Virus record (IMG/VR): IMGVR_UViG_3300025141_010109
Span: 1 to 32,365 of that record
DNA: 32,365 nucleotides
Reading direction: 5' to 3' (one strand)
DNA from: a virus
How positions within the stretch are numbered: the stretch's first letter is position 1; each line of letters opens with the position of its first letter. The position numbers and the translations under genes are program-made. A model generated the notes under the pieces. That model was not told where the DNA came from. It saw nothing but the letters and a program-made list of their open reading frames with translations, and searched no databases. Shown here piece after piece: positions 22,150-31,984 of this stretch.

Positions 22150-23507
22150 GATTCAACCTTTTTTAATTTTGGTAATTTTACTTTAGGTGTAGAGCCATCA
22201 ACCTTTTTTAATTTTGGTAATTGTAACTTTACCGGCTTTGGAATTGTTTCAATTGCTTTATCAATAATTGTACAGAATTTTTCTGCCATATGATCTAGAC
22301 TAAAATTCATTTTACTATAATGTCCTTGTTTTCTAGATTTTTGTAAATAGTTTTTATAGTTTTTCATAACATCTTGTAATACTCTTGATGCATATGCGTA
22401 ATTAACTGTAAACCATTTTGATTCTTTTAATACAAATCTATCTTGTGCAGATGCATGCACATCTGTTAATTCTCCTGGTAATAATGTACAATAATCTTTG
22501 TGTAGGAAATCTATGTGACCTGACCAGTTTGATGCTATTATTGGTTTGCCTGTTAAACTAAATTCTAACAATGGTCTACCAAACCCTTCTCCTTTTGTAA
22601 ATGATACCATTGCCTTTACTTTTGAATGATTATAAAGAGAATTCATTTCTGCATCTGTTAAATCTCCGTGTAATAGATAGATATTAGGTATATTATCACC
22701 ATATGGCAAAACTATTGATTGAATCTTCTTTGTTATTTCAGTACGATCTATTATAGAAAATGTTGCATGAGATGTTTTAATAATTAATCCAGGACGATTT
22801 CTTGCCGATTTACGTCTAAAGCTTTCACAAAATGTTTTAATCATCATACCAACATCTTTTCTATCTTGTCCTAAATCGCCTTGGAGCCAGTGGCCTACAA
22901 AAAGATAACAAAAATCGTCTTTAATATCTTTTAATTCTTCTAGGACTGTTTCATGAATTTTAGGTGTCTTTTTATATATATTAAGATCTGCACCTTCAAA
23001 TAAAACTTCAATAGGTTTTTCAATCTTAAGTTCTCCAATTTTTTCTTTTGTTTCTTTATCCATTTTATCGTACTTACATGTAATGAATCCATTTTTCGAA
23101 TGTTCTGATGTAGTGATAACCATGTCCATTCTATTACATCCTTCAATAAATTCATGAGACACTAGTGTCGTTTCAATACCTGCAGTAACACCAATATTAA
23201 ATTTTCCAGGTCTAATAACTTGTTTTCCGTCCGCGGACATACAAAATTCGTTTGGAACAGATACTTGAATGAATATGTCGGGTGTATTAAGCTGCTGACC
23301 TTGTTTTGCGACTCGTTTAAGAATTTCTAGATGATCTTTATTGTCAGCTTCTAATGCATTCATAGGTGTCACTCCCCATGGAAGTGATATTATTTTAACA
23401 TCATATTTATTTGCTCTAATTAAACTTGTAGCTAAATCTCTTGTATGGTTTCCATACCCTGATCTAGTTGCGATAGGTCCTTGTATTATTATTAATGGTT
23501 TTGTCAT
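22146..23507 (-). CDS. GT4-like glycosyltransferase with repeated LPKLKK tail
   Basis: 453 residues. Seen: N-terminal IIIQGPIATRSGYGNHTRDLA with the glycine-rich loop of GT-B enzymes, NIGVTAGIETT, VITTSEHSKNGF, a second Rossmann domain with CYLFVGHWLQGDLGQDRKDV, and the donor site KGEGFGRPLLEFSLTGKPIIASNWSG, including the Glu-rich E-x7-E pattern of GT4. Up to about residue 420 it is a normal retaining transferase. The last 27 residues are a basic linker with two copies of LPKLKKV (430-436 and 445-451), encoded by an exact 25-base direct repeat. The next protein upstream carries a related motif at its N-terminus. ATGA-coupled at both ends. Confidence 0.85.
   Translation of the reverse strand: MTKPLIIIQGPIATRSGYGNHTRDLATSLIRANKYDVKIISLPWGVTPMNALEADNKDHLEILKRVAKQGQQLNTPDIFIQVSVPNEFCMSADGKQVIRPGKFNIGVTAGIETTLVSHEFIEGCNRMDMVITTSEHSKNGFITCKYDKMDKETKEKIGELKIEKPIEVLFEGADLNIYKKTPKIHETVLEELKDIKDDFCYLFVGHWLQGDLGQDRKDVGMMIKTFCESFRRKSARNRPGLIIKTSHATFSIIDRTEITKKIQSIVLPYGDNIPNIYLLHGDLTDAEMNSLYNHSKVKAMVSFTKGEGFGRPLLEFSLTGKPIIASNWSGHIDFLHKDYCTLLPGELTDVHASAQDRFVLKESKWFTVNYAYASRVLQDVMKNYKNYLQKSRKQGHYSKMNFSLDHMAEKFCTIIDKAIETIPKPVKLQLPKLKKVDGSTPKVKLPKLKKVES
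22153..22222 (-). repeat. Direct repeat encoding the LPKLKK tail
   Basis: Two exact 25-base copies at 22153-22177 and 22198-22222, 45 bases apart start to start, both in frame in the 3' end of the GT4 gene. A related, imperfect copy (shared core TTACCAAAATTAA on the minus strand) is at 24926-24946, near the 5' end of the other GT4 gene. The encoded residues are L-P-K-L-(K/R)-K-(V/I) followed by an acidic residue. Confidence 0.85.
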
Positions 23508-24961
23508 ACTATAACTCCGGGGTTTTCTATTTGTTGTGCTTGATTAATTTTATACATTGTAAATCTTTTTCTTCGTGTCCATTTTTCAAAACATTCTTCC
23601 ATACACTCTACAAATCTTTCACTCATTCTTCTTGCAGACATATTTGATTCATCACCACAAACCCAATCATGTCCTAATTCACCTCTATGTTCTCTTTCTT
23701 CTTCTGGCATATCATACCAATATTGAATTGCATCTGCTACTTCTCTAAAATCTGTTCTATCATCAAATATGTATGGTGTTTGTGGCGATCCTTGTACACT
23801 CCTATTACTTGGAAAGACTGGTTTTACCCATCCTCCATGTTCTGTATATGTTCCATCATGATTGGATGGGAAATGTGTATCAAATTTAATCCAATCTCCA
23901 TTATCATCTTCAAATCTACATCCGTCTTGTAATCCTCCTGTTACATTATTAACAATTGGTGTGCCTGCATGTAATGATTCGCACCATGAAATTCCAAAAC
24001 CTTCATTTGAAGCAATATTAACTGTTATATCTGCTAAATTATAAAAATAATTCAGTTGTTGTGTATCAACAGATGTTGTTGAAAATACTATTTTATATTT
24101 TGGGCATATTGCATTTTTTACTGCTACTAAATCAGTACCGTTAGGGTCTGAAACTTGAGTGTGCAAAAGTAGTGCACATTTATCTGCTTTCTCTTTTGGT
24201 AATCTATCACAAAATGTTTTATATGCTAAAATTAAATCAGCTGGCATCTTCCTTCTTATGTTTCTATTATTCCAAAATATAACAAAATCAACATCATTTG
24301 TTTTCTTAAAATTAGTTTGAAAATTTTCAAAATCATTCCATTTAGGATGTAATGAATTTATCGGATAAAAATGATTTTCGTTAACGCCATGCGGAACCCA
24401 TTGAACTGCCCAATCTGGTTTTGGATGGCTTCTGATTACATTTTTTACAATATTATCTGTTTGTCGTGATATATTCATTATTAAATCACAAGATTCGTAA
24501 AATGGTTCATTCCAAAATGGATAAGGAAGATCGTCCCAAATATTATAATACATAATTGGGATATCTTGTCTTAATTCATGCTCCATATTGTATAGCCAGC
24601 CCCAAAATCTTGGGTCTGTAAAATGCATGATAGCATCTGGTTTTTCTAATAATATTAACTCTTTTATTACCTGAGGATTGCCGTAACCTGTGTTTGCATA
24701 TATTTTTAGGTATGCATCTTTCACACCTGTTTCTTTTACTGCATCTTCGCTTATATCAATTATTTTGCCAGAGTCTGGATGTTTTACAGCCGCTCCTAAT
24801 TGCGCCCAATCATACTTATCAATAGTTCCTAATACAAATTCTTTAGACATTGTACCAATGCCAGAATGCATTCTTAAATCATCTGATAATAATAAAATTT
24901 TCTTTTTCTTGGGTTTGTTTGGGTCTATCTTTCTTAATTTTGGTAACTTAATTTCTTGCAT
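23504..24961 (-). CDS. GT4-like glycosyltransferase with N-terminal LPKLRK motif
   Basis: 485 residues. Seen: a basic N-terminal leader with LPKLRKI at 6-12 and a run of Lys near 16-21, then KILLLSDDLRMHSGIGTMSKEF as the GT-B N-terminal loop, FTDPRFWGW, YNIWDDLPYPFWN, WVPHGVNENHFYP, FIFWNNRNIRRKMP as the start of the donor half and SNEGFGISWCESLHAGTPIVNNVTGG as the donor loop with the GT4 Glu pattern. A late insertion near 375-410 is rich in aromatic and Pro residues. The ATG has GGAG seven bases upstream. It is the first gene after a 43-base gap with a promoter-like sequence, so it probably opens the glycosylation block. Confidence 0.85.
   Translation of the reverse strand: MQEIKLPKLRKIDPNKPKKKKILLLSDDLRMHSGIGTMSKEFVLGTIDKYDWAQLGAAVKHPDSGKIIDISEDAVKETGVKDAYLKIYANTGYGNPQVIKELILLEKPDAIMHFTDPRFWGWLYNMEHELRQDIPIMYYNIWDDLPYPFWNEPFYESCDLIMNISRQTDNIVKNVIRSHPKPDWAVQWVPHGVNENHFYPINSLHPKWNDFENFQTNFKKTNDVDFVIFWNNRNIRRKMPADLILAYKTFCDRLPKEKADKCALLLHTQVSDPNGTDLVAVKNAICPKYKIVFSTTSVDTQQLNYFYNLADITVNIASNEGFGISWCESLHAGTPIVNNVTGGLQDGCRFEDDNGDWIKFDTHFPSNHDGTYTEHGGWVKPVFPSNRSVQGSPQTPYIFDDRTDFREVADAIQYWYDMPEEEREHRGELGHDWVCGDESNMSARRMSERFVECMEECFEKWTRRKRFTMYKINQAQQIENPGVIV
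24926..24946 (-). repeat. Third copy of the LPKLRK-coding motif
   Basis: Codons for residues 6-12 (L-P-K-L-R-K-I) of the GT4 protein. It matches the two copies at 22155-22175 and 22200-22220 in its 13-base core. It is placed at an N-terminus here rather than a C-terminus. Confidence 0.7.
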
Positions 24962-26529: not shown

Positions 26530-26922
26530 TTATTTGCCCCAAACCTTCTTCTGAACTATTTGAGCAATAATACCATAAACTGATAGATCTTGGAACGTAT
26601 CTGTCTCAGCTTCTCCAACTATATCTTTATGACCCAATATGATAAGTTGTTTTAATCTTTGTATTTTATCATTTATTCTAAACCATAACCCTGTTAATGA
26701 TAATTTTACATCATCGTCTGATAATAATTTTGTTCCTACTGATATATTATCTGGACCGTAATTCTTTTGTTTCTTACAAAATAGTATATATTGGTCATTC
26801 ATTATCTTTTTGAACTCTTTACATGTTTCTGGATAATTTGTTTCACAATAATCTACAGCTGTATTACCTGTTGATTCTGTTTCTTTAAAATCTATTCTAG
26901 GTGTGTCCTTTATTGTTCTCAT
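26530..26922 (-). CDS. DUF1599 / nucleotide-modification-associated domain 1-like protein
   Basis: 130 residues. Seen: CKEFKKIMNDQYILFCKKQKNYGPDNI (about 34-60), then GLWFRINDKIQRLKQLI (78-94), GEAETDTFQDLSVYGIIAQIV at the end. This all-helical pattern with a conserved KxxNYG, R-x2-DK-x2-RL and E-x3-D-x3-D-x2-xYG is what I associate with DUF1599, called nucleotide modification associated domain 1, which is found in many T4-like phages. It resembles MazG-type helical NTP hydrolases in its acidic-residue pattern. Biochemical role not established. It is translated by ATGA coupling after gp62. Confidence 0.65.
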   Translation of the reverse strand: MRTIKDTPRIDFKETESTGNTAVDYCETNYPETCKEFKKIMNDQYILFCKKQKNYGPDNISVGTKLLSDDDVKLSLTGLWFRINDKIQRLKQLIILGHKDIVGEAETDTFQDLSVYGIIAQIVQKKVWGK

Positions 26923-27389
26923 TTTAATAACTTTTTAATTTCTTTTTCTGTTTTACCGTACATTTTTAGTAACTCTTGTAAATAATTTATCCCACCGTTT
27001 GTCCTTTTGAATAAATTAATATATTCTTCAGCTTCTTGCGAATTAACTTCATAATGACTTGTAATAAGCTTTACAAGTTCTTTATCGTATTTGGCCAATT
27101 TTTTTCCTTTGATATACCTAGCAAACATTTTCTGCTTAGGCAGAATGTCATAATATAATTGGTAAACATGCTTTTTATTTAATGGTCCAATTGTATATTG
27201 TTGAAACATATCAACAACCTCAATTAAATCTGGATTCATTGACAACCATCTATTAATTAAATATGGAGAAAAGGCCTTTTGATCTAACTCTGACATAGAA
27301 TTCCAGTCCTTTTTCTTCCATGTAATATTTGCTAAATGATCAAATATTGTGGCTGGCTTACTTATCTTCTTTTGGCCTGAACTCTTCAT
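26919..27389 (-). CDS. 62: Clamp-loader small subunit, gp62-like
   Basis: 156 residues. T4 gp62 is the single small subunit that joins four gp44 ATPase subunits to load the gp45 clamp. Seen: KKDWNSMSELDQKAFSPYLINRWLSMNPDL (26-55), a block typical of marine T4-like gp62, then a LPKQKMFARYIKGK segment (85-98) and a HYEVNSQEAEEYINLF C-terminal helix corresponding to the conserved YxV..xxA..Y region of gp62. The ATG lies inside the zinc-ribbon gene, overlapping it by 32 bases, and no other start is available before residue 32. No clear ribosome site is seen, which suggests translational coupling. Position after gp45, gp44 supports the assignment. Confidence 0.85.
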   Translation of the reverse strand: MKSSGQKKISKPATIFDHLANITWKKKDWNSMSELDQKAFSPYLINRWLSMNPDLIEVVDMFQQYTIGPLNKKHVYQLYYDILPKQKMFARYIKGKKLAKYDKELVKLITSHYEVNSQEAEEYINLFKRTNGGINYLQELLKMYGKTEKEIKKLLK

Positions 27390-27612: not shown

Positions 27613-28542
27613 TTATTTTAACTCGTTTAATAATTTTACTATTGTCGACATGACATGTAATTCTTTATCTACTGCAAATGCATCTTGATATTGAGATTCT
27701 GCTAAAATTAATATCACGCTTGCAATATGTCCTTTAGCGTAATTATCAATTTCATCGAATAAAAATTTATGTAATGCAGTAAAATCTTTTACTTTACTAT
27801 CATTAATATATTGTCTAATATCTTTAAATGCATTTTTCTTACTAGTATTAGATTTTAATATATTTAATACTTCGGCCATATAATTTGCTTGGACTAGACT
27901 TTCTTCATCTATTTTTAATGTTCCATCAACTACCTGTCTTTGAGCTGAATTCAATACTCTTCTTATATCTGGATATCCGTTATCAATTAATGTTTTTATA
28001 TCTTGGAGGTCATATTTTATCTCAAGATCGTTTAATATATCAGCAATCCGTTTTGCAACTGATAACTTATCTGGTGGAGTAATTCCAAATACTTGACATC
28101 TAGATTGTATTGGGTCAATAATCTTCTCAACATAATTACATGTTAAAATAAATCTAGTTGTTTTAGAAAATGTTTCCATTAAATTTCTTAATGCAGCTTG
28201 ACCATTTGGAGTCATATAATCTGCTTCATCTAATATAACAATTTTCCATCTTTTGAATCCTACTGTACTTGCAAAGTTCTTTACTTTAGTCCTAACCGTT
28301 TCAATATTATTTTCGTCAGATGCATTTATATACATAACATCTGCATCAACATTTCCTGAAATTATCTTTGCTAATGTTGTTTTACCTGTTCCGGCAGGTC
28401 CATAAAATAATAGATGCGGAACATCTCCATTTTCAAGATATAATTTTACTTTACTGATAACTAATTCATTACCAACATATCCGTCTAATGTACTCGGCCG
28501 AAATTTTTCAACCCATAATGTATGTTCTTGATTTCCGTACAT
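27613..28542 (-). CDS. 44: Clamp-loader ATPase, gp44-like
   Basis: 309 residues, close to T4 gp44. AAA+ ATPase that opens the sliding clamp and places it on primer-template DNA. Seen: WVEKFRPSTLDGYVGN at the N-terminus, Walker A GPAGTGKT (48-55), Walker B ILDEAD (103-108), the S-R-C arginine finger (147-149) and the collar domain at the C-terminus. All catalytic residues are present, so it should be active. The gene starts one base after gp45 stops and is followed by the zinc-ribbon gene after a nine-base gap. This is one of the two genes that firmly identify the region as a T4-like replication module. Confidence 0.96.
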   Translation of the reverse strand: MYGNQEHTLWVEKFRPSTLDGYVGNELVISKVKLYLENGDVPHLLFYGPAGTGKTTLAKIISGNVDADVMYINASDENNIETVRTKVKNFASTVGFKRWKIVILDEADYMTPNGQAALRNLMETFSKTTRFILTCNYVEKIIDPIQSRCQVFGITPPDKLSVAKRIADILNDLEIKYDLQDIKTLIDNGYPDIRRVLNSAQRQVVDGTLKIDEESLVQANYMAEVLNILKSNTSKKNAFKDIRQYINDSKVKDFTALHKFLFDEIDNYAKGHIASVILILAESQYQDAFAVDKELHVMSTIVKLLNELK

Positions 28543-28543
28543 A

Positions 28544-29260
28544 TTAAGCTGTTTGTAATTGTACTAAATAATAAGTTGATGTATAATTTTTACCTTTAAA
28601 GGTAACTCTTGCTAAACCTGCACTTGAGACTTCTAAACGGCCAGATTCGGCATCTTTATTTGCAACTAAAATTTCTTTAAATAATGTAGATGAAAAACAT
28701 ATAACTGACATGTCTGTACTTCCTTGTGTATCTAAATTGAATTTAATTCTATTAGTATTTATAGTCTGATAATTTATAATCATTTCTACTTCATCATTAT
28801 TACATTTAATTCCAAAATTTTCTGTTTCAGGTAATGCATTTTTTGCTTTAATAAATTTATTTCTAAAATCATTAGTGATACTAATTGATGCGTTCCAGTC
28901 AGGTGTATTTTTTAAATCTGGAACTTGTCTTATAACTGATAAATCAGCTAACATAAATGTCATATCAACATCTTTATCATTAATACCAATACTGACAGCT
29001 GTTTTATCTACAGCATTGACATTAACTGTTAAATCATCTCCTACGGCTGATAACATCTTTACTAATGCCGGTGTTGCATAAACTCCTAAATCATGAGTTC
29101 CTAAATCTAGATTAGTTGAATTGATAGTTCCTATCACATTTTGATCATCTGTGATAAAATTTGTTTGTAATGTTCCATCTTGTGCAACCCATTTTACTGA
29201 TGTAGTTGCTCCAGCTAGGTGATACCTGCTGATAAAATTTATTAAGTCGTTCTTTTTCAT
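28544..29260 (-). CDS. 45: DNA polymerase sliding clamp, gp45-like
   Basis: 238 residues from ATG 29260, one base after the upstream stop, with AAAGG about ten bases before it. The frame extends to a TTG at 29281 but that start would overlap the upstream gene and has no site. Trimeric ring that holds the DNA polymerase on the template and, in T4, also activates late transcription. Seen: NDLINFISRYHLAG near the N-terminus, the LGVYATPALVKMLSAVG block, IRQVPDLKNTPDW near the interdomain region and a C-terminal VTFKGKNYTSTYYLVQLQ, in line with gp45 proteins of marine T4-like phages. Slightly longer than T4 gp45 (228). Confidence 0.9.
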   Translation of the reverse strand: MKKNDLINFISRYHLAGATTSVKWVAQDGTLQTNFITDDQNVIGTINSTNLDLGTHDLGVYATPALVKMLSAVGDDLTVNVNAVDKTAVSIGINDKDVDMTFMLADLSVIRQVPDLKNTPDWNASISITNDFRNKFIKAKNALPETENFGIKCNNDEVEMIINYQTINTNRIKFNLDTQGSTDMSVICFSSTLFKEILVANKDAESGRLEVSSAGLARVTFKGKNYTSTYYLVQLQTA

Positions 29261-29261
29261 A

Positions 29262-30497
29262 TTATTCTGCCTTTTGTTCAAAAAATTGGTTAAAAATATC
29301 TTTGTTCATTGTTGTTATACTTTGTCCTCCGAACTTCTGATAGTATTGTTTATATTTTTCATATGTTGTAATAGCTTTATCTGGGTCTTCAAACATTTCA
29401 TAAATGCTTTTTAATACTGCAGCTAAATTATTTGGAACAACATATTGAGCAACATCTCTATGAGCTGCTACTATTTTGTTTACTTCTTGTATTGTATTTT
29501 GAAATACATGAACATTATGTAATACCATTCTTGGAACAGCATCTTTATTATATTCTTCTAACATGCCCCAATTAAAATCTTTACATGCTGGACAATCTAA
29601 ACTACATGGAACTAATAAATCATGTTCTAAGTCTGGAATTTCTAATTCTAACTTATTTCCATCTTCATCTTTGCCTGGCTTTGGCATATATAAATCCGTA
29701 AATGATAATTTCTTAAAATTATGCGAATGTAAATAAGTTCCATACACAGGATATTGGCCAGGCGAACTTGAATCTGTTGTAACTACTATTCTATTTCCAA
29801 AATGTTTATTCAAATTCTTTTGTATTGTTGATAAAATAAAGAAATCAGATATTTTAGAAATACCTAGTAAATGTAAATATTCTAAATTTACTTTTTCGAA
29901 TTCTCTATTTTTTAACATTAAAGCTAATGCCCACATAAAATCAACTAACTTTTGTGGTCCTCCTATTGCCCAACCTTGAAATTCAAAATGCTTAAATTTC
30001 TGATACCACCAGTCATACTCTTGTGGATTAGAACCTTGTAGCATATTTAAGTATTTTGTCTTTCCTGTTTGGTTCTTTTCAAACCAAGCAAAATTATCAA
30101 AACTAATATCTGCACATTCATAAAATTTATTTTCATAAACTGTTTTAGGTGGAATATCTAAATTAGCTGCTACATCTGAATTGGCTTCTAACCAATGGAA
30201 TATCTTTTCACGTAAATCATGACTATATTTTAATGCTCCTGTAGCTATTTGATATCCTCCGGAGTCACCGAACACTAATGTGTCTTTTCCTAATCCCATC
30301 TGTTCTCTAATATCCATCTTCTTGTAATAATGGCCTGCAGTAACTAGAAAGTACTTATGTCTAAATGATTCTGGATATTCATTGTCATAAAACCTACATG
30401 GAGTACCTGATGATAATTTATCATCTTTAATTAATGCTGATGCAAATCCTCCGGCCGATAATGACGGGAAGTAAATAAATTCTTTTTCTTTACTCAT
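29262..30497 (-). CDS. TGT-like 7-deazaguanine transglycosylase, DpdA-type
   Basis: 411 residues of the tRNA-guanine transglycosylase superfamily. Seen: FGDSGGYQ with D78 (the base-binding Asp), ANLDIPP with D114, NMLQGS (151-156) and GWAIGG (175-180), both TGT hallmarks, VTTDSSSPG with D242 at the nucleophile position, and a zinc site C298-x3-C302-x2-C305 with H327 or H330. DpdA proteins use this fold to exchange guanine in DNA for a 7-deazaguanine base (preQ0 or a derivative), protecting phage DNA from host nucleases. Placement directly before gp45 in the replication block favours DNA rather than tRNA as target. The precursor-synthesis genes (queC, queD, queE, folE) are not in the window. 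Confidence 0.8.
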   Translation of the reverse strand: MSKEKEFIYFPSLSAGGFASALIKDDKLSSGTPCRFYDNEYPESFRHKYFLVTAGHYYKKMDIREQMGLGKDTLVFGDSGGYQIATGALKYSHDLREKIFHWLEANSDVAANLDIPPKTVYENKFYECADISFDNFAWFEKNQTGKTKYLNMLQGSNPQEYDWWYQKFKHFEFQGWAIGGPQKLVDFMWALALMLKNREFEKVNLEYLHLLGISKISDFFILSTIQKNLNKHFGNRIVVTTDSSSPGQYPVYGTYLHSHNFKKLSFTDLYMPKPGKDEDGNKLELEIPDLEHDLLVPCSLDCPACKDFNWGMLEEYNKDAVPRMVLHNVHVFQNTIQEVNKIVAAHRDVAQYVVPNNLAAVLKSIYEMFEDPDKAITTYEKYKQYYQKFGGQSITTMNKDIFNQFFEQKAE

Positions 30498-31548
30498 TAA
30501 ATAATACTTTTCTTAACCCATTACATGAAAAATAATTCTCATGTAAACTATTTGCTAATTCTTTTACTTGTTTCTTATAATGATCATGATGTTCTATATA
30601 TTCTATAATTGTTGATATCAATCTATCCTTATTCTTCATATACGATTCCCATGACTCTGTCCATTCACTTGGATATTTGAAATCATCTGAATACATTTCT
30701 GTATAACTTAACCTGTCTGGAACCATTGGTATCGCGCCTGCTAATGCTCCTTCATAGCATGAAATACCTAATGTCTCTTGAAGATTTGCAGAGAATACCA
30801 TTTTAGACCTTTCTAATAGACTATGATATTCTTTTTTACTAAAATTATGTTCTTGACATATTATACATTTATATGTTTCTGGTAACGATTTAGCTAAATC
30901 TTCAAATATCTCTGGTTGTTTTTCTGGAGCCATTCTATGTGGAAATAATATAATGTCTTCTTTAGGTTGTGGCTTAAACATTTTATATAAATACTCCATC
31001 GGCCATCCTGTTCTAAAACATTCAATATCATCATAACCAAAATTATCTCTAAACATTTTCAAATGATCATCTGATGCAAACCAATTGTAATCTATTGTTT
31101 GAGCTAATGATTTTTCAAATGTCTTAACCCATTTATCTTTAATTAATCTACCTAAAAAGTCATTTGGGTCATAATTACCAGCATGCCAAAGACCGTGAAT
31201 CTTAATTGGTATTTCTAACAATTGACTCATATATTTCAATTGAATGATACTTGGGTTCCATGCATCTGTATAAATAAAATGGTCTCCAGGCTTAACTTCG
31301 TTATCACAAAACAATCTGCCTATTTTAACCATTTGTGCACTCTTGTAAATATTAGTGCCTCCAAAATTTAAAAATGCTCCTGGAGTAGTTGCTTCAGGAA
31401 TGTCTGTGGGTCCTTCTATTACTCGTACATTATATTCTCCAAAACCTAGTTTTCTCATTAAATCAGGAAAATAGTGTTTCCATTGCCCAGTATATCTAGA
31501 TTCGACAGCTTCTAAATCAACTATCCAAATATTATTCAATTCTGTCAT
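30490..31548 (-). CDS. GT-B glycosyltransferase, GT4-like
   Basis: 352 residues. Seen: NNIWIVDLEAVESRYTGQW at the N-terminus, FLNFGGTNIYKSA, IPIKIHGLWHAGNYDPND, TIDYNWFASDDHLKMF in the first domain, then IILFPHRMAPEKQPEIFEDLAKSLP and the donor site NLQETLGISCYEGALAGAIPMVPDRLSY, with the GT4 Glu pattern. It is directly upstream of the DpdA-like gene and far from the glycan cluster. A role in adding sugars to modified phage DNA, as T4 glucosyltransferases do, is a reasonable hypothesis; the alternative is glycosylation of a surface or virion component. The ATG at 31548 overlaps the upstream gene by 17 bases. Confidence 0.72.
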   Translation of the reverse strand: MTELNNIWIVDLEAVESRYTGQWKHYFPDLMRKLGFGEYNVRVIEGPTDIPEATTPGAFLNFGGTNIYKSAQMVKIGRLFCDNEVKPGDHFIYTDAWNPSIIQLKYMSQLLEIPIKIHGLWHAGNYDPNDFLGRLIKDKWVKTFEKSLAQTIDYNWFASDDHLKMFRDNFGYDDIECFRTGWPMEYLYKMFKPQPKEDIILFPHRMAPEKQPEIFEDLAKSLPETYKCIICQEHNFSKKEYHSLLERSKMVFSANLQETLGISCYEGALAGAIPMVPDRLSYTEMYSDDFKYPSEWTESWESYMKNKDRLISTIIEYIEHHDHYKKQVKELANSLHENYFSCNGLRKVLFNE

Positions 31549-31984
31549 GTTTATAATCGTCTGGTGTTACATGTTGCATATTTTGTACGCTTGCACAATA
31601 TAAAGAATAATCATCATATACAACTTTTATACTATCATTCTTTTTTAATAATCGCACATCCTTTTCATTCATCATGTACATTATATGTACTTTAATTCTA
31701 ATCATTGCAGGTATCTTTTCTAACATACCTGGAGTAACTTCTAATGTGATTATTTTATTCCATTTACCTATATATTCATCTAACCATTCCCAGTCATAAT
31801 GGTCATGGCCGTTAATGATTTGTTCAGTGGCTCCGGAACAAAAATATATATGAGGCGAGGTTGTTCCGCCTGGTATTGATTCTTGTTCCCAAAAAGCTTG
31901 TAAATCAGCTATAAATAATGTTTCAACATCTGTTAATCTGCCTTCACATTCTTTTCCATACCAATAATCTTTAAATCCTATCAT
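31532..31984 (-). CDS. Unknown protein, 150 residues
   Basis: I do not recognise a family. Seen: DYWYGKECEGRLTDVETLFIADLQAFW, IYFCSGATEQIINGHDHYDWEWLDEYIGKW, a hydrophobic strand-rich middle with KIITLEVTPG and MIRIKVHIMYMM, and an acidic C-terminus. Three cysteines and a HDHYDW stretch could form a metal site, but no known motif fits. No membrane segment. It is the first gene after the best candidate promoter-like element in the window and overlaps the glycosyltransferase gene that follows. Confidence 0.65.
   Translation of the reverse strand: MIGFKDYWYGKECEGRLTDVETLFIADLQAFWEQESIPGGTTSPHIYFCSGATEQIINGHDHYDWEWLDEYIGKWNKIITLEVTPGMLEKIPAMIRIKVHIMYMMNEKDVRLLKKNDSIKVVYDDYSLYCASVQNMQHVTPDDYKHDRIE

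Follow-up and report, generated by a model that had tools for sequence, protein, structure and literature searches.

A gene for a DpdA-type transglycosylase and a glycosyltransferase (GT) gene lie side by side in the replication block of an IMG/VR virus, and the pair recurs across phage lineages. The evidence makes it likely that the first enzyme puts a 7-deazaguanine into the phage DNA and that the second glycosylates it; the product has not been measured. The genes, their folds, their active-site residues, their recurrent pairing and the presence in relatives of genes of the pathway to 7-carboxy-7-deazaguanine (CDG) are established. That the acceptor is a base in DNA and that insertion comes first are inferred from genome context, and a protective role is likewise an inference. 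The original prediction had proposed the same two steps: it is supported by the relatives' genes and the recurrent pairing, with its chemical product still unproven. What appears to be new is that a known kind of system, deazaguanine modification of DNA, has a glycosyltransferase dedicated to it; the predicted product, a sugar-bearing base, is not known to have been described.

The two enzymes and their locus

The stretch of DNA analysed here, called the window, is a whole IMG/VR virus record of 32,365 bases (IMGVR_UViG_3300025141_010109), with most of its genes on the minus strand. At its right end the order of transcription is p150, GT, TGT-like protein, putative sliding clamp, then gp44-like and gp62-like clamp loaders. 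A glycan cluster lies farther along in the same reading direction; it is taken from the original prediction, and only its nearest GT was checked. The TGT-like protein (411 aa; 29262–30497, minus strand) is assigned as a DpdA-type DNA-guanine transglycosylase by motifs, fold, profile scores and tree. Its open reading frame overlaps by eight bases that of the GT (352 aa; 30490–31548, minus), whose start is in turn overlapped over 17 bases by p150 (31532–31984, minus).

On the other side, the putative clamp (245 aa; 28544–29260, minus) starts one base past the DpdA stop. It adjoins the gp44-like clamp loader (27613–28542, minus; phrog_168, E 2e-81; PF00004, 2.9e-20), and the gp62-like small subunit (26919–27389, minus; phrog_225, E 1.6e-19) completes the replication context. 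The clamp candidate is recognised by no profile or PDB sequence, and the name gp45 is inferred solely from its place beside gp44 and gp62.

The DpdA-type protein has the motifs DSGGYQ (D78–Q83), QGS (Q154, G155) and GWAIGG (W176–G180), cysteines C298, C302 and C305, H327, and D242 at the position of the nucleophile. Across 33 homologues, with identities down to 15%, residues D78, S79, G80, G81, Q83, D114, G155, H209 and D242 never vary, and Q154 is kept in at least 90% of the sequences. An AlphaFold2 model (pLDDT 78, pTM 0.83) compared with the PDB by Foldseek gave best matches that are all TGT or DpdA enzymes (E 2e-8 to 2e-6), headed by the archaeosine TGT 1iq8 (E 2e-8) and the DNA preQ0 insertase DpdA 7ui4 (E 6e-8); bacterial and murine TGTs are also among them. 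Of 36 close relatives, 21 have the CxxxCxxC zinc cysteines; none of 63 more distant partners does, which rules out the zinc site as a hallmark of this family.

Several claims made from the sequence alone can be judged at this point. The two genes and their eight-base overlap, all four motifs at their stated places and the distance of the GT from the glycan cluster held. Adjacency to gp45 held as well, with the identity of gp45 resting on gene order only. The claim that failed is the zinc site as a superfamily hallmark, since the cysteines are dispensable here.

By sequence profile the protein falls under every family cut-off: 14.9 against 26.3 bits for Pfam TGT (PF01702), and 18.6 against 350 for NCBIfam TgtA (TIGR00432). 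This marginal TgtA match is the only one in NCBIfam for either protein, and PHROGs and PADLOC return nothing for the window GT or DpdA. It is thus not a tRNA TGT by profile; that it exchanges guanine in DNA rather than in tRNA is supported by indirect evidence only. With its own profile the window DpdA scores Paride at 485 bits, KVP40 (DpdA2) at a marginal 3.5 bits and CAjan (DpdA1) at −2.4 bits, and DpdA2-type sequences form a separate clade on the DpdA tree. By these scores and the tree the protein belongs to a subgroup of its own, neither CAjan-type DpdA1 nor nt-1/KVP40-type DpdA2. On the two questions of kinship that the original prediction had raised, it therefore lies outside both DpdA subgroups and far below the tRNA TGT cut-offs.

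A tRNA reading of the pair should nonetheless be considered. In this alternative the TGT-like enzyme would insert a deazaguanine into host or phage tRNA and the GT would glycosylate it, as in mannosyl- and galactosyl-queuosine of animals. Glycosylated queuosine is indeed known in animal tRNA (PMC12518689, PMC8654956), and the fold is common to DpdA and tRNA TGT. Against it stand the location in a replication cluster, the low profile scores, a similarity to E. coli Tgt that is only motif-length (BLAST E 0.23), and the established role of FolE/QueD/QueE/DpdA sets of phages in DNA modification (PMC6884629). We hold this reading to be very unlikely.

The partner enzyme meets the criteria for membership of the GT4-type retaining glycosyltransferases with a GT-B fold: the EX7E motif of retaining GT-B enzymes is present as E258-x7-E266, together with the donor-binding R205 and K210. 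The latter two are invariant in 31 sequences, as is E266, and E258 is found in at least 90%. Its model (pLDDT 84, pTM 0.83) matches BshA, MshA and SenB in the PDB by Foldseek (best BshA, E 4e-9), and its best viral structural match is the ACP17 homologue (2e-26). Pfam Glycos_transf_1 stays under its cut-off (16.8 versus 26.4), so that the sequence by itself does not place the protein. Its predicted acceptor is the base inserted by DpdA; that it transfers sugar to a DNA base is inferred from genome context only.

DpdA is under purifying selection. Median dN against close relatives is 0.080 for DpdA, 0.120 for the GT and 0.138 for the clamp loader, a constraint stronger than that on the clamp loader for DpdA and comparable to it for the GT.

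Recurrence of the pair across phages

Scanning IMG/VR with a GT profile returned at least 596 relatives, and 80 contigs were kept for the counts. Many IMG/VR records are fragments, and those searched have no completeness estimate. DpdA lies 0–5 kb from the GT in 70 of the 80 contigs; the remaining 10 have less than 4 kb of sequence on the relevant side. All 63 contigs that extend 4 kb or more upstream of the GT contain it. The two genes share a strand wherever this was measured, and they directly abut in 36/36 close relatives with the GT in view. When contigs were picked by the clamp loader instead, every one with enough sequence (28/28) had both genes. No GT without DpdA was found where the contig extends far enough.

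Complete phages of six further lineages carry GT and DpdA, and FolE is present in all six. In Paride/PA5oct the TGT gene precedes the GT with a one-base overlap; in ACP17 it also precedes the GT, surrounded by QueD, FolE and QueE. The order is reversed in X1, where GT and TGT lie between FolE and QueE, and BUCT-ZZ01 has FolE, TGT, Tf125 (a small conserved family described below) and GT. In Phosso the GT adjoins FolE and QueE, with the TGT distant in the genome. The distant GT of PhiXhv-12 adjoins an annotated glutamine-fructose-6-phosphate aminotransferase and a GlcNAc-malate deacetylase, with DpdA and QueD elsewhere. Scanning IMG/VR with the GTs of Paride and X1 returned no close relatives, and a scan with the ACP17 GT recovered ACP17 itself only. 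Most of the genes concerned are annotated as 'hypothetical protein' in these phage records.

The reverse situation, DpdA without GT, occurs in KVP40, Ps15, pf16, Amme-1, GR7B and CAjan (for the last, 50 of 59.7 kb were searched). Mapped onto the DpdA tree, the GT label must change 6 times, and well-supported branches force at least 4 of these changes. The association is therefore recurrent, through repeated joining or repeated separation. The one-sided dependence, DpdA without GT but no GT without DpdA, is what would be expected of a decoration step downstream of DpdA. From this comparative evidence the pairing is not due to chance, and the functional link is strong.

A referee may object that the two enzymes are merely neighbours: DpdA would make a plain 7-deazaguanine, and the GT would act on a virion or host-surface glycan or on a small molecule, the genes sitting together as both counter host defences. 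The window does contain a large glycan cluster, with its nearest GT (23504–24961) 5.5 kb from the DpdA-linked one; the closest solved folds belong to small-molecule or polysaccharide enzymes; and GT and DpdA lie apart in Phosso and PhiXhv-12. However, comparison of the GT with all other window proteins, the glycan cluster included, gave no match at E up to 10, which also rules out that the gene drifted in from that cluster. Moreover, the GT is always found with DpdA, in several lineages and in both gene orders, and adjoins FolE or QueE. We regard a role elsewhere as unlikely.

Could the GT act on another modified base, such as the hydroxymethylcytosine (hmC) of T4? Its place in the replication block recalls T4-type DNA glucosylation, an inference from gene position. 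Yet the thymidylate-synthase/dCMP-hydroxymethylase family is absent from the complete GT-bearing genomes of ACP17, X1 and BUCT-ZZ01, which makes T4-like hmC glucosylation unlikely, and DpdA and FolE occur in every GT-bearing complete genome. Another modified base as acceptor is very unlikely.

Relatives of these genes were also seen outside phage records. Three MAG contigs labelled Euryarchaeota, Pacearchaeota and Neomarinimicrobiota (L153, L155 and L156) carry the phage block DpdA-p177-Tf125-GT, p177 being another small protein treated below; they are likely viral contigs binned with cellular genomes. A relative of the window's DpdA subgroup lies in an island of the Limnohabitans sp. Rim11 chromosome (L149:2074-9281), with a weakly integrase-like gene adjoining seryl-tRNA synthetase and several unknown proteins. 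This is possibly a bacterial modification or defence island; similar relatives occur in Polynucleobacter, Sphingobium and Roseovarius.

Base-synthesis genes and small partner proteins

We compared 37 contigs with close DpdA relatives (82–100% identity). The order p150-GT-DpdA-clamp-gp44-gp62 is kept wherever these contigs reach. The window stops short of the remaining genes of the locus, base-synthesis genes included. In the relatives, the strand of the GT carries, farther upstream, DNA polymerase B, then a phosphoribosyltransferase (PF00156, 3.5e-24) and FolE (PF01227, 2e-44), and beyond FolE a gene that by eye resembles GroES, QueE (TIGR03365, 1.2e-14) and QueD (PF01242, 4e-15). The nearest FolE is located 3.4–4.6 kb upstream of the GT, QueE 4.6–5.6 kb and QueD 5.4–6.3 kb, and 10 of the 11 relative records searched have a FolE that passes the Pfam cut-off. 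For the window's own genome, folE, queE and queD are inferred from these relatives.

FolE, QueD and QueE convert GTP to CDG, and QueC takes CDG to preQ0 via ADG (PMC13329287). No QueC was found in 11 close marine relatives, one record of 129 kb included, and none passed the cut-off in 10 further contigs with the GT (65–245 kb) or in the complete genomes of Paride, Phosso, ACP17, X1 and BUCT-ZZ01 (PhiXhv-12 was outside this search). It is present in KVP40 and Ps15, both without the GT. QueF is absent from all 11 records searched. With no clear QueC and no QueF where searched, the phage-encoded pathway stops at CDG; a host QueC may still finish preQ0. The main expectation of the original prediction, that folE, queD and queE would be found elsewhere in the genome, is thus met in relatives, 3–6 kb upstream of the GT. 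Its suggestion of queC and an amidotransferase gene was not borne out, as neither was found.

Some neighbours of these genes deserve mention. The phosphoribosyltransferase recurs in such clusters in unrelated phages (L034:5253-5759, L001:10342-10776, L006:2748-3209). Xanthomonas phage X1 has a PAPS-reductase-family ATP pyrophosphatase between FolE and GT (L005:3197-3730; PF01507, 1e-13) that might conceivably activate the CDG carboxyl in QueC's stead. About 15 marine relatives, L034 and L018 among them, have a full-length GroEL-like gene (~535 aa, by eye) between the clamp-loader genes gp44 and gp62. The window lacks it.

Small proteins accompany the pair. The gene for p150 is at the same position in 26 marine relatives, and in L145 p150, Tf125, GT and DpdA are contiguous. 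Its N-terminus resembles the p177 family, which in other phages adjoins DpdA (hhalign E 1.7e-4, probability 49%); p150 and p177 (L115:1077-1610, L004:6323-6721) look like two branches of one family tied to DpdA and GT. We found no known domain or structure for either, and p150 is listed as a member of the GT/DpdA module with unassigned function. Tf125 is a conserved family of 125 aa without known function (PHROG 17812), in which HxH, SCE and ED motifs are invariant. It occurs at L001:9159-9536, L002:7618-8001, L004:9018-9401 and L006:7293-7655 as well as 70 more loci, and nearly always adjoins the GT except in the clade of the window. The HxH motif made it a candidate substitute for QueD; this was ruled out, as a true QueD lies elsewhere in 10 of 11 of the same genomes, and hhalign found no match between Tf125 and QueD profiles (7%). 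Searching the PDB with p150, p177, Tf125 and the clamp yielded no credible match.

Genes near the GT offer some hints of the sugar donor. A UDP-glucose/GDP-mannose dehydrogenase-like gene, recognised by eye only, lies close to the GT at L089:4457-5248 and at 25 more loci, and could supply a uronic-acid donor. In Xanthomonas phage PhiXhv-12 (L008:3642-6876) the GT stands in a bacillithiol-like (BshA/BshB) gene row, with functions as annotated, which hints at a possible amino sugar.

Proposed pathway and its place among known systems

In the preferred reading, FolE, QueD and QueE, encoded outside the window and known from relatives, would turn GTP into CDG. Once the phage DNA is replicated, DpdA would release selected guanines by breaking their glycosidic bond, with D242 as the nucleophile, and insert the 7-deazaguanine base in place of the guanine removed. 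The GT4-type enzyme would move a sugar, with retention (EX7E), from a nucleotide-sugar to the inserted base. The modification would likely serve to shield the phage DNA against restriction and other nucleases, and the neighbouring phosphoribosyltransferase may salvage the guanine released by DpdA.

The inserted base may be CDG, or preQ0 completed by a host QueC; both remain open, and the sugar, the linkage and the 7-substituent are undetermined. Possibly the base is altered by host QueC or by p150, p177 or Tf125 prior to glycosylation. Since the nitrile of preQ0 is no good acceptor and CDG has a carboxylate, we lean, by inference, towards CDG or a derivative made by the partner proteins. A bolder version can be formulated: synthesis halts at CDG, CDG is inserted, and its carboxylate, directly or after modification by p150, p177 or Tf125, carries the sugar. 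The balance of evidence tilts slightly against this version; if true, it would define a new class of glycosylated deazaguanine DNA base across several unrelated phage lineages.

Objections to the main reading remain. The only obvious acceptor of CDG is its carboxylate, and a glycosyl ester would be unusual. The GT profile cannot separate a DNA acceptor from others, and BshA, MshA and SenB act on small molecules. The separation of the two genes in Phosso and PhiXhv-12 counts here too, and there is no chemical analysis of DNA from any of these phages.

The steps might also run in reverse, the GT glycosylating a free base or nucleotide such as CDG and DpdA inserting the already glycosylated base. 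The small-molecule substrates of the BshA, MshA and SenB folds speak for this, as does the place of the GT among base-synthesis genes in ACP17, X1 and Phosso. However, the TGT pocket would need to accept a base with a sugar on it. It also counts against this order that the bases inserted by known DpdA systems are small, with decoration following later on DNA. In Dpd systems, dADG is made from dPreQ0 in DNA (PMC12839542). We judge glycosylation before insertion very unlikely.

The proposed sugar on the base is open to direct test, since both genes occur in phages that are in culture: Paride and PA5oct (P. aeruginosa), ACP17 (A. citrulli), X1 (X. campestris), BUCT-ZZ01 (Synechococcus) and Phosso (S. 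meliloti). Such a sugar at the 7-position would give modification-dependent restriction systems a new target and would be new chemistry for a GT4-type enzyme.

The original prediction had called the combination undescribed, and this held within the open literature searched, where we found no description of the DpdA-GT pairing; a mention in Cui 2023 or in a 2024 review is not excluded. Known phage 7-deazaguanine bases carry small substituents. To our knowledge, there is no glycosylated form among the eight phage 7-deazaguanine bases (Cui et al. 2023).

DpdA and DpdA2 were defined in phages by Hutinet 2019 (PMC6884629), with one phage lacking QueC alone. The systems of 9g, CAjan and nt-1 described there resemble the present one in the TGT-fold insertase, its replication region and FolE/QueD/QueE, and guanine exchange in phage DNA is expected in both. 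The window type differs in its own DpdA subgroup, in the lack of any QueC or QueF found and in its constant GT partner; glycosylation of these bases is not mentioned in that work. For PA5oct, a deazaguanine system was already predicted by Iyer 2021 (PMC7824862), whose main text names only deazaguanine synthesis and incorporation, without linking a GT to it. PA5oct-group phages have the same DpdA subgroup and the GT side by side.

Mannosyl- and galactosyl-queuosine (PMC12518689, PMC8654956) likewise have a sugar on a 7-deazaguanine derivative within a nucleic acid. There it is tRNA and the acceptor is queuosine's cyclopentene hydroxyl; here it would be DNA, no cyclopentene synthesis genes were seen, and the GT has no match to the Pfam queuosine-mannosyltransferase. 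In the CmoX/CmoY 5-glycylcarboxymethylcytosine system (PMC12783734), a carboxylated base also serves as the handle for hypermodification of phage DNA, with cytosine, an amino acid and an ATP-dependent ligase in the place of the guanine, sugar and GT proposed here.

Finally, the α- and β-glucosyltransferases of T4 share with the present GT a proposed post-replicative transfer of sugar to a modified DNA base. The base is hmC in T4 and would be a deazaguanine here, where the enzyme shows the EX7E motif, its neighbours by fold are of the GT4 type, and the dCMP-hydroxymethylase family is missing from three complete genomes with the GT. A sugar at the 7-position, if confirmed, would join T4-like bulky glucosylation with base replacement, two otherwise separate protection strategies.
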